Positions 16,612-28,011 of a stretch of DNA of 32,246 nt are shown piece by piece; the first letter of the stretch is position 1; every line of letters begins with the position of its first letter. Both the position numbers and the translations under genes were made by a program. This stretch comes from Alkalibacterium sp. (lineage in GTDB: Bacteria > Bacillota > Bacilli > Lactobacillales > Carnobacteriaceae_A), in assembly GCA_007692455.1 (NCBI GenBank), contig RECC01000040.1, positions 1 through 32,246 of the forward strand, written 5' to 3'. The notes under the pieces were generated by a model, which was not told where the DNA came from, did not search any database, and saw nothing but the letters and a program-made list of their open reading frames with translations.

Positions 16612-17172
16612 ATGCCTGTTGATCCAATTACATGGACTGCCGACCGATTCAGTAAAAATTATGTGGCTGACTATAAACCGTACAACTTTGTCGATGGAGA
16701 AGGCGTCCGCTGCAGTATTTATGTCAGCGGCTGCCCCTTCGCCTGCAAGGGCTGCTACAATAAGGCGGCCCAGGATTTCAGTTACGGCTCCCCCTATTCC
16801 AGAGAGCTGGAAAGTCAGATTATAAAAGACATGCGGGCCGATTACTGTCAAGGACTGACGCTTTTGGGCGGGGAACCCTTTTTAAACACTGGGGTGACCG
16901 TACCCTTGTGTGAAGAAGTAAGAGAAACCTTCGGCTGGACAAAAGACATCTGGTCCTGGACCGGCTACACATGGGAAGAACTGCTGCAGGGAACTGCCGA
17001 CAAGCGGAGACTGCTGGAGCTCATTGATGTAGTAGTTGACGGGCGTTTTGAACAGGACAAGATGGACTTGAACTTGGCTTTTAGAGGAAGCTCAAACCAG
17101 CGCATTATCGATGTACAGGCCTCATTGGAAGAGGACGAAATCGTCCTCTGGAATGACGGGGCTTATAAATAA
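16612..17172 (+). CDS. nrdG: anaerobic ribonucleotide reductase activase NrdG
   Basis: This 186-residue radical-SAM enzyme installs the glycyl radical on NrdD. The 4Fe-4S/SAM motif is C41-PFA-C45-KG-C48. The SAM-binding glycines appear in LTLLGGEPF. The C-terminal part VVVDGRFEQDKMDLNLAFRGSSNQRIIDV is typical of NrdG. Its start is 1 bp after the nrdD stop, so the two are translationally coupled. A long terminator follows at once. Confidence 0.96.
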   Translation: MPVDPITWTADRFSKNYVADYKPYNFVDGEGVRCSIYVSGCPFACKGCYNKAAQDFSYGSPYSRELESQIIKDMRADYCQGLTLLGGEPFLNTGVTVPLCEEVRETFGWTKDIWSWTGYTWEELLQGTADKRRLLELIDVVVDGRFEQDKMDLNLAFRGSSNQRIIDVQASLEEDEIVLWNDGAYK

Positions 17173-17176
17173 AAGG

Positions 17177-17227
17177 CTTCAAGAAGGTTGACTTCAATTC
17201 AGTCACCTTCTTGAAGTCTTCTTTTTT
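17177..17227 (+). terminator. terminator of nrdDG
   Basis: CTTCAAGAAGGT (17177-17188) pairs with ACCTTCTTGAAG ending at 17216, extended inside by GACT/AGTC after one bulged T. The loop is 7 nt and the T-rich run TCTTCTTTTTT follows. It is a strong intrinsic terminator. Confidence 0.92.
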
Positions 17228-17326
17228 GGGGGATATAGATTTTCTATCGGAGTAAAGCGTGCTAATGAGTTGATTTAAAGCCTTTTGGACCTATTTCTCT
17301 TCTTTGAAAAGAGTTGGATCGACAGC

Positions 17327-17680
17327 TTTGGCAGACTCCGCGGGAAAATGGTTTGAGTTAACCGAAGTTGGTGCCTCTTTGGCAGACTCCATGAGAAAAT
17401 AGATTGAGTTAACCAAAGTCGAAGCAACTTGGGTAAACTCCGCACAAAAATGACTTGAGTTTTCCCAAGTAGCCGCCGCTTAGGAAAACTGAACAGAAAA
17501 ATTTGTTGAGTTAACCGAAGATAGTGCTACTTCGGTTAACTCAATGGGGAAGGTACTGGGTTAACTGAAGGGGGTGCTCCTTCAGCAGACTCCACCAAAA
17601 AAAAGAATTGAGTAAACCGAACTTCCGACCACTTCAGCATAGTCCACGGCAAAAATCTGGCGAGTTAACCGAAGCAGGCG
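17327..17680. repeat. tandem array of seven degenerate 51-bp units forming phased hairpins
   Basis: Units begin at 17327, 17378, 17429, 17480, 17531, 17581 and 17633 (periods 51, 51, 51, 51, 50, 52), each with a TT(T/G/C)GG-like start and ACTCC or a variant. About 28 bp into most units lies GAGTTAACCGAAG or a variant. It is complementary to the start of the next unit, so six hairpins form, centred at 17372, 17423, 17474, 17525, 17575 and 17627. The fourth is perfect: TTGAGTTAACCGAAG (17506-17520), 9-nt loop, CTTCGGTTAACTCAA (17530-17544). Hairpin three has TTTTCC opposite GGAAAA where hairpin four has TTAACC opposite GGTTAA. Hairpin five has CTGAAG with CTTCAG instead of CCGAAG with CTTCGG. 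These are compensatory changes. No open reading frame runs through. More degenerate relatives may extend upstream to about 17265. Confidence 0.9.
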
Positions 17681-17747
17681 AATAACAGCAGAAACGTGCA
17701 AAAAGAACTGAAAAATAGAGCATCGGCGGCTGGCATAAGCACCTTAT

Positions 17748-17776
17748 TTGCTAATCTGCCAGAAAATGGTATACTA
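17748..17776 (+). promoter_or_regulatory. extended -10 promoter of the candidate small RNA
   Basis: TTTGCT (17748-17753) and TATACT (17771-17776) are spaced 17 bp, with the extended TGG at 17768-17770. No coding frame follows, which is why I read it as the promoter of a non-coding transcript. A hairpin CTGGCA/TGCCAG (17731-17736 with 17758-17763) overlaps the -35 region. Confidence 0.55.
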
Positions 17777-17782
17777 TAAGGA

Positions 17783-17997
17783 CGTTGAAGATAGATATGA
17801 AATATTATATAAACACGTTTTAACGAAGTTTATTCGCACTGGCGCAGCTTTGGGGCTGTAAGGACACGATAGAGGTAGGGATTGTGTCGTTTAAATGAGA
17901 AACTTAGTCATATAGATATGAATAGAAAATAACCAGCAATTTGCTTTACAAATATTTATGTTTAACCAGAAAGCCACTCAACTTTTGAGTGGCTTTT
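17783..17997 (+). ncRNA. candidate structured small RNA of about 215 nt
   Basis: This stretch is framed by an extended -10 promoter and a strong terminator and has no usable reading frame. Hairpins in order are CGAA/TTCG (17824-17836), GCAGC/GCTGT near 17844-17860, and GACACGAT with ATTGTGTC near 17873-17900. The last has a purine-rich loop, AGAGGTAGGG. The terminator stem follows. I compared it by eye with 6S RNA, tmRNA, RNase P RNA and common riboswitches and recognise none. The ends are estimates from the promoter and terminator. The nearest downstream gene is 360 bp away, so a leader is less likely than a free RNA. Confidence 0.5.
17970..17997 (+). terminator. terminator of the candidate small RNA
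   Basis: AAAGCCACTCAA (17970-17981) and TTGAGTGGCTTT (17985-17996) form a perfect 12-bp stem with a 3-nt loop, ending in TTTT. A-rich sequence on the left also allows some activity on the other strand. Confidence 0.88.
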
Positions 17998-18000
17998 GTC

Positions 18001-22308: not shown

Positions 22309-22511
22309 ATAATCATCATTCATACCTGAATTGCAGGATAAACATGGATTAAAGGGCATATAATCGTCTTTCAGATGAAGTATCCAGGATGAACAAGGGA
22401 AAAATAAATATAATCGTAGTTCGTACATTATTTTCGAGCTGAACAATGATTAAGTAGCTGATAATCGTTAGTCGTTTAATAAACAGAAGATGAACACGGA
22501 TTAAACGACCA
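22309..22511. repeat. tandem array of four degenerate units of 50-51 bp
   Basis: ATAATCRT recurs at 22309, 22360, 22410 and 22461 (spacings 51, 50, 51). Near the end of each unit a second conserved block recurs: AGGATAAACATGGATTAA, AGGATGAACAAGGGAAAA, AGCTGAACAATGATTAAG and AGATGAACACGGATTAAA. The end of one unit (GAAC..GATTA) is partly complementary to the start of the next (TAATC..GTTC), giving weak hairpins centred near 22356, 22406 and 22457. A perfect 10-bp inverted repeat, GTCGTTTAAT/ATTAAACGAC (22471-22480 with 22500-22509), lies in the last unit. Weaker dyads continue the phase at 22260, 22308, 22601 and 22652. There is no open frame. Confidence 0.75.
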
Positions 22512-27754: not shown

Positions 27755-27778
27755 GCTGAAGGTAATGAGAACCCGTTA

Positions 27779-28011
27779 AGTTTGAAGAGAAGTAGGCAGT
27801 CAAACTAAAAACTTACAGCAAAAAAATGCAGTTCAGACTGAAACCAATCAGCTGAACTGCATTTTTGTCTGAACCGGTCTAGTTTGAGCTGGTTGTACAA
27901 CTTCAAACTGGAAAAAACGATACAAAATGTGAAGTTTAGCCGGCAAATCACGGCTAAACTTGATCCAATAAATTCTTGAAAACAAAAAAGGAAAATCTGG
28001 CTCGCCAGATT
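27779..28011. repeat. array of five inverted repeats at about 51-bp spacing between convergent genes
   Basis: Hairpins in order: AGTTTGA/TCAAACT (27779-27806), ATGCAGTTCAG/CTGAACTGCAT (27826-27862), AGTTTGA/TCAAACT (27881-27909), AAGTTTAGCCG/CGGCTAAACTT (27932-27961) and AATCTGGC/GCCAGATT (27994-28011). All arms are perfect. Centres are at 27792.5, 27844, 27895, 27946.5 and 28002.5 (spacings 51.5, 51, 51.5, 56). The first four share an AGTT...AACT core. They fill nearly the whole gap between argH and the minus-strand flavoprotein gene. Confidence 0.8.
27822..27866. terminator. bidirectional terminator after argH
   Basis: AAAAATGCAGTTCAG (27822-27836) and CTGAACTGCATTTTT (27852-27866) form a 15-bp stem, with A's on one side and T's on the other, so it can end transcripts from both argH and the opposite gene. 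CTGA/TCAG pairs within the loop. Confidence 0.88.

Follow-up and report, generated by a model that had tools for sequence, protein, structure and literature searches.

The window analysed here is a stretch of 32,246 nucleotides from Alkalibacterium sp. (genome G000), and it carries an array of short inverted half-sites that starts 154 bp past nrdG. The identities of NrdD and NrdG, downstream of which an earlier sequence-only reading of this DNA had placed the array, were confirmed. The features of the locus are as follows, with the individual half-sites placed by a half-site matrix chain.

16612..17172, plus strand: nrdG, the gene preceding the array (TIGR02491 above cut-off)
17173..17228, plus strand: stem with a T-run that, by eye, resembles a terminator and separates nrdG from the array
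17326..17674, no strand assigned: class A array of 14 half-sites (RL x7), consensus TSAGTTTRCCGAAS (repeat search and half-site matrix)
17326..17338, minus strand: half-site R1
17355..17367, plus strand: half-site L1
17377..17389, minus strand: half-site R2
17406..17418, plus strand: half-site L2
17428..17440, minus strand: half-site R3
17457..17469, plus strand: half-site L3
17479..17491, minus strand: half-site R4
17508..17520, plus strand: half-site L4
17530..17542, minus strand: half-site R5
17558..17570, plus strand: half-site L5
17580..17592, minus strand: half-site R6
17610..17622, plus strand: half-site L6
17632..17644, minus strand: half-site R7
17662..17674, plus strand: half-site L7

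A short conserved RNA-like block follows the array. It occupies 17740-18000, is kept after nrdG in most species compared and, read by eye on the plus strand, opens with a promoter-like sequence and closes with a terminator-like one. An Rfam BsrC match at 17814-17900 lies on the minus strand, opposite to the apparent promoter and terminator of the block.

In the window array a degenerate half-site of 13 bp occurs 14 times, and its orientation is inverted from each copy to the next without exception (RLRL...). It can be written as seven units of the form CTTCGGTAAACTC-N15/16/17-GAGTTTACCGAAG with 9 bp between units, giving the pattern RLRLRLRLRLRLRL with gaps of 16, 9, 16, 9, 16, 9, 16, 9, 15, 9, 17, 9 and 17. 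These limits, set by a half-site matrix that was trained partly on the window array itself, differ slightly from the 17327-17680 proposed from sequence alone. The array can be counted as six hairpins (L-9-R) or as seven R-gap-L units, and the latter is the useful unit because most arrays begin with R and finish with L. A repeat search recovered the six hairpins that had been placed at 17372, 17423, 17474, 17525, 17575 and 17627, with spacings of 51, 51, 51, 50 and 52 between direct copies, together with the hairpin described as perfect over 15 bp (17506-17520/17530-17544). The judgement that this is neither CRISPR nor a recent microsatellite also holds for the window array. TRF reports it only in part (17326-17441, period 51), and such arrays are therefore easily overlooked.

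Further copies of this motif, designated class A, were located in the same genome with a structure-free profile, 150 of 813 first-look candidates being scored. The stretches examined hold 19 chained arrays, of which 17 are complete and two are cut by contig ends, and some 246 class A half-sites are present in the genome. The two partial arrays (L058:5206-5292 and L070:18-134, terminal on contigs C34 and C96) are perhaps a single array that broke the assembly. Exactly 14 half-sites occur in 14 of the 17 complete arrays; the remaining three have 12, 13 and 16, and a weak fourteenth site is visible in the one with 13. When each of 17 loci was shuffled once, no chain scored 25 or more. Outside arrays, no pair of class A half-sites reached threshold in 578 kb of this genome, where three single 13-mers were found, and the same 578 kb contained no isolated pair near a possible autoregulated gene.

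The half-site measures 13-14 bp over the arrays as a whole and is bipartite, made up of the blocks TSAST and RCCnAA, and the L arms and reverse-complemented R arms fit one strand-symmetric matrix (uncorrected p > 0.05 at 11 of 13 positions). The sequences of the gaps are near random between class A arrays, with mean identities of 0.28 for the 9-bp gaps and 0.30-0.33 for those of 16-17 bp. As for their lengths, 11 of 14 arrays have 16 bp in the fourth spacer, which is the central one, most other long spacers being 17 bp, and gap lengths are mirror-symmetric in 76 of 84 pairs, a result equalled or bettered in 7 of 2000 shuffles. For a second class, C, the corresponding figures are 55 of 60 pairs and 0 of 2000 shuffles. 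Mean periods are 51.74 bp for class A, 51.32 bp for class B and 51.39 bp for class C. A half-site pair thus takes up approximately 51.5 bp, close to five helical turns, so that corresponding half-sites face nearly the same side of the helix.

Arrays of other motifs share this geometry of about 51.5 bp, both in other species and in the window, sometimes at the same intergenic position. Next to nrdG in G011 there are 14 half-sites of motif B, GAGTTTTAAGAAT, lying beyond a small RNA-like block; in G002, nrdG is accompanied by 13-14 half-sites of motif C, CTAMnTRCCGAAn, placed before the RNA-like block as in the window. Eight motif B arrays of 13-17 half-sites each were found in G011. Motif C arrays of G002 and G005 have 12 half-sites in 12 of 15 cases, and the gap series 17, 8, 17, 9, 17, 8, 17, 9, 17, 8, 17 is identical in eight of those 12; one further motif C array (L119, 13 half-sites) lies outside the 15 counted. 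The nrdG-proximal position, 68-154 bp past the gene, is occupied by motif A in G000 and G004, an A-like motif in G001 and motif C in G002 and G005. A position on the side of what we take, from its sequence, to be truA carries motif A, an A-like motif and motif B in three species, and the single array of a motif D, in G007, stands beside a presumed selD (likewise named by reading the sequence) where G000 has a motif A array.

A motif-free search for the geometry gave five known arrays scores of 92-184, where 30 shuffles did not exceed 44, and named the motif poorly for two of the five; it was this search that brought up the motif D array of G007. Applied to the window, it revealed two further arrays of other motif classes, each with 8 half-sites and mirror-symmetric gaps.

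22314-22499, no strand assigned: second array, gaps 8, 17, 8, 16, 8, 17, 8 (score 77.1; maximum 44.7 in 60 dinucleotide shuffles of the segment)
27776-27963, no strand assigned: third array, gaps 8, 17, 9, 16, 9, 17, 8 (score 89.9; maximum 51.0 in 60 dinucleotide shuffles of the segment)

By eye, the motif of the second is approximately YGAACAnGGATTA, in a shifted register. That of the third is TnnAGTTTRRnnn, and this array is flanked by argH and a gene for an FAD-binding enzyme, which are convergent. Arrays resembling the second occur elsewhere in the genome at L069:432-646 (score 122) and L057:998-1183 (score 101), the shuffle maximum being 49 for each; in a shorter run L057 scored 60.7, under the best of 369 shuffles (61.3). 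Three more arrays, scoring 133, 103 and 67, came from 400 kb of class-A-poor contigs of the same genome. The search also revealed further classes in G002, G005 and G011, an array in G006 (71) that is weakly informative, and a pair in G009 (71 and 67), the best shuffle reaching 52. At L203:4381-5069 of G002, a motif C array and an array of GAGTAMKnCKAAT (14 half-sites) stand nearly back to back. Since several classes coexist in G002 and G005, and both model A and model C find matches in G004, one motif per species is a rough rule only. Several classes retain an SAGT block and vary the other block, and class C does the opposite; such block-wise change would fit a two-part DNA-binding module.

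The ten closest relatives of the window NrdG are all labelled Alkalibacterium (76-88% identity), which places the window in this genus. Among 36 nrdG loci a 51-, 102- or 103-base periodicity (match at least 0.55) was found at 5 of 11 from Alkalibacterium and 0 of 25 others; one Aerococcus locus carries an unrelated 41-base repeat. In a search of 60 relatives with stricter filters, the motif A model matched 8 of 12 genus genomes, with two matches each in G007 and G010, and none of 48 from other genera, a search that is bound to its motif and so says little of others. The motif B and C models matched 6 and 5 of the 12 genus genomes, respectively, at E <= 0.01, several of these matches being weak. 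The geometry-only search was not tied to a motif. Loci from other genera scored at or under the shuffle maximum in it (45.0 versus 48.0), 74 segments of G016 yielded no array, and 86 segments of G019 gave one borderline case (58.7; best of 435 shuffles 52.1). No match to the window array was found by blastn in collections of phages and plasmids.

The sequence-only reading had taken compensating differences between hairpins as a sign of selection on the folded form or of a duplication mechanism acting on it, and, for the former, had named an absence of significant co-variation in related arrays as the result that would count against this. Run as a permutation test, with R arms shuffled within arrays, the comparison gave just that result. 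Across 71 hairpins from 12 arrays, 608 of 923 arm positions pair, against 617.0 expected (sd 7.9, z -1.1), or 668 against 669.0 when wobble is included. Five genomes and classes A, B and C gave z values from -1.14 to 1.06 for the hairpins and from -2.27 to 0.36 across the long gap, the row for the window's own genome counting the window array twice because locus L112 duplicates it. The window array by itself does show more arm pairing than permuted arms: 61 of 78 positions pair (mean 56.2) and only 8 of 720 permutations do as well, or 4 of 720 with G-T pairs allowed. This local excess over chance accounts for the original impression, which does not extend to the wider set.

A transcribed array of protein-binding RNA hairpins, each with a 13-bp stem recognised as RNA, would draw on that same excess and on the fact that the stems can form. 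We nonetheless consider it very unlikely. Besides the lack of any pairing excess in the larger samples, the motif is strand-symmetric, the arrays lie mostly beyond the ends of genes, and no Rfam family lies over the window array at gathering score, the nearby BsrC match being the only one. Moreover, the arms are not complementary in mid-stem in several arrays of G001 and G008, making pairing impossible there. Pairing, whether in RNA or as a cruciform, is not supported in general, and the array is best read as a set of DNA sites rather than as a folded RNA.

In comparisons of orthologous arrays, selection seems, from the pattern of substitutions and indels, to act on the half-sites and their spacing. 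Three arrays shared by G002 and G005 are identical at 251 of 259 informative half-site positions (97%) and 195 of 222 other half-site positions, against 321 of 438 gap positions (73%) and 441 of 630 flanking positions (70%), in a pool of unequal loci whose flank identities are 91%, 70% and 51%. The informative positions differ from the gaps with a Fisher p of 7e-18, a contrast that is partly circular since the matrix was trained partly on the same arrays; gaps and flanks are not distinguishable (p 0.27). A non-circular comparison, which rests on seven events and excludes 29 flank end columns arising from unequal windows, is that of internal gapped columns: a single event accounts for 1 of 920 columns in the arrays, and six events for 10 of 640 in the flanks (p 0.02). 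Over greater distances (G000 with G003 at three arrays and with G008 at one), identities are 0.61-0.71 for half-sites, 0.33-0.38 for gaps and 0.41-0.59 for flanks. Random half-site pairs within G000 agree at 0.68, and distant orthologous half-sites are thus no more alike than random ones while the geometry is kept, which indicates that sites turn over within the motif as the geometry persists.

Half-site counts vary widely in relatives, from 3 to 29 with the motif A matrix, and this speaks against a strict fixed-count rule. Long arrays with near-identical units include L106:6073-6799 (29 half-sites) and L086:1501-2075 (23). Such units look like the product of ordinary tandem-repeat turnover, and tandem duplication can enlarge arrays. 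Two class A loci on contig C3 of G011 (L108 and L109) are 98.8-98.9% identical to G003, the nrdG loci of the two genomes being 81% alike, and are probably contamination of the G011 bin. A class A array on contig C2 (L110), 72% like its G003 counterpart, may be G011's own. All three arrays were left out of the class assigned to G011.

The nearest known kind of element, by placement and alternating orientation, is REP/BIME of E. coli and other bacteria: intergenic palindromic units in alternating orientation, for which binding of chromosome proteins has been proposed (in part after PMC12306157). The arrays share the intergenic, palindromic and alternating character and are multicopy, with tandem expansions in some species. 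They could accordingly be repeats of that type, spread and shaped by a mobile-element protein such as a RAYT transposase with no benefit to the host, which we regard as unlikely. REP/BIME elements exist as many dispersed near-identical copies, singles included, whereas here gap identity is 0.28-0.33 and no class A pair stands outside an array in the 578 kb. Unlike REP/BIME, two classes of the arrays keep for the most part to one half-site count (14 in class A of G000, 12 in class C), the spacing is near 1-bp exact and often mirror-symmetric, the gap sequence is unconstrained, and there are several motif classes, the motif differing from species to species. Copies also persist at orthologous positions across species, and the divergence of gaps while half-sites and spacing are kept makes it appear that each array is maintained in place. 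Neisserial NIME/dRS3 are likewise intergenic arrays built on short inverted repeats, with another geometry; unlike them, the present arrays have no conserved sequence between half-sites.

Placement was assessed with genes called by ORF length only. Both neighbours could be called for 53 arrays: the flanking genes are codirectional in 40 cases, convergent in 9 and divergent in 4, compared with 87, 11 and 39, respectively, for array-free gaps of at least 150 bp. Divergent gaps are therefore rarer for arrays (4 of 53 versus 39 of 137, p 0.002). Median distances are 130 bp from a gene 3' end and 214 bp to a gene 5' end, and a simple rule found a terminator-like stem at 32 of 58 gene ends that face an array. 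The neighbours are ordinary: NrdG in the window and, as we read their sequences, presumably TyrS, ClpP, PheT, MnmG, TruA and others elsewhere. The sole large recurrent family is one that we take, on the same basis, to resemble ABC transporters.

The prevalence of codirectional neighbours, the median distance of 214 bp to a gene start and, in the window, a promoter-like sequence (by eye) directly after the array would suit enhancer or silencer arrays through which fast-evolving global transcription regulators act on adjacent promoters. To this explanation, too, we give only a small chance: the nine convergent arrays have no gene start facing them, only four of the 53 are divergent, and the neighbours so far are unrelated housekeeping genes (those outside the window by sequence reading).

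One class A array, common to G000 (L069:2381-5788) and G003 (L101), lies about 2.2 kb from chromosomal parB. When array-adjacent pieces were placed on G016, a genome of another genus, 9 of 14 matched at 50% identity or more, at approximately 93, 184, 680, 711, 841, 963, 1012, 1122 and 1662 kb of 1978 kb, matches below that identity and an additional hit at 1821 kb by one of the pieces being left aside. Six of the nine are within 300 kb of parB in G016 (828 kb), a weak hint of clustering near parB. Plasmid centromeres and iterons (parC, tubC and Rep iterons) are helically phased arrays of sites that assemble a nucleoprotein complex, and helical phasing is common to the arrays described here. 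Unlike those systems, the present arrays are present in many chromosomal copies and have inverted half-sites with about 51.5 bp per pair; unlike plasmid centromeres, they have no recurrent partition-gene neighbour, the array close to parB being a single case.

The 13-8/9-13 arrangement of two half-sites is similar in spacing to that of loxP-like sites. TIGR arrays, as described in PMC12045711, alternate two repeats with 9-nt spacers and need a Nop protein. These likenesses raise the possibility of recombinase sites or of RNA-guided sites of TIGR or CRISPR type, which we hold to be extremely improbable. TIGR arrays have two repeats of 8-12 nt and two spacers of about 9 nt, and the gaps here are 8-9 and 16-17; being of these lengths and near-identical in homogenised arrays, they are not guide-like. 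Half-sites that are degenerate and inverted, with gaps that can be near-identical, also differ from CRISPR, in which the repeats are direct and near-identical and the spacers unique. No dedicated recombinase or guide-binding protein was seen beside the arrays, G001 bears arrays and yet has only two tyrosine-recombinase matches, and the 12 genus genomes hold no Nop-domain match.

We consider it probable that the arrays are double-stranded DNA docking elements for a putative family of sequence-specific DNA-binding proteins that would form fixed-size nucleoprotein particles on them, perhaps in chromosome organisation. Confidence is high that they are double-stranded DNA sites under selection, moderate that they carry particles formed by a dedicated protein family, and low to moderate that the purpose is chromosome organisation, as argued from placement and geometry only. 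The putative protein, probably a dimer, would occupy every site from about the same side of the helix, and the filled array would be a discrete, symmetric nucleoprotein particle. A closed particle is suggested, more than an open filament, by the constancy of the count and the mirror symmetry of the gaps. Paralogues of differing specificity would serve the different motif classes, and their role, between transcription units, may be to organise the chromosome locally or to insulate.

Among the functions to consider, the sequence-only reading had included DNA recognised by a nucleoid or partition protein, a suggestion that is compatible with the evidence; no binding protein was found among the candidates sought, namely an extra ParB/Noc, a Nop protein and a tyrosine recombinase dedicated to the arrays. 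For ParB/Noc beyond Spo0J, 11 of the 12 genus genomes have one ParB_N match and G009 has two. The domain of Nop-type Tas proteins (PF01798) gave no match at E <= 0.01 in any of the 12. The two tyrosine-recombinase matches of the array-bearing G001 (open frames of 302 and 305 aa) are probably two Xer proteins.

A search of the literature, limited to open papers in PubMed Central and thus no proof of absence, found no description of these arrays. A bolder reading, possible but rather doubtful, is that they reflect an undescribed layer of chromosome architecture in Alkalibacterium. Several paralogous, rapidly re-specialising DNA-binding proteins would build mirror-symmetric particles of fixed stoichiometry (12-14 half-sites, approximately 300-355 bp, with five turns to each pair), the intergenic loci concerned numbering up to a dozen or more, with site sets and proteins changing together and geometry, and often position, being kept.

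Among closely related bacteria, a DNA-binding specificity that serves many targets is usually conserved. The class A specificity of this genome, with its some 246 half-sites, appears to differ from those of the main classes found in other Alkalibacterium species, and the spacing hardly varies by a base pair. Should the protein be found, these arrays would provide a natural series for studying the co-evolution of a regulator-like or architectural protein with its entire set of sites, and possibly a new kind of chromosome-organising particle.
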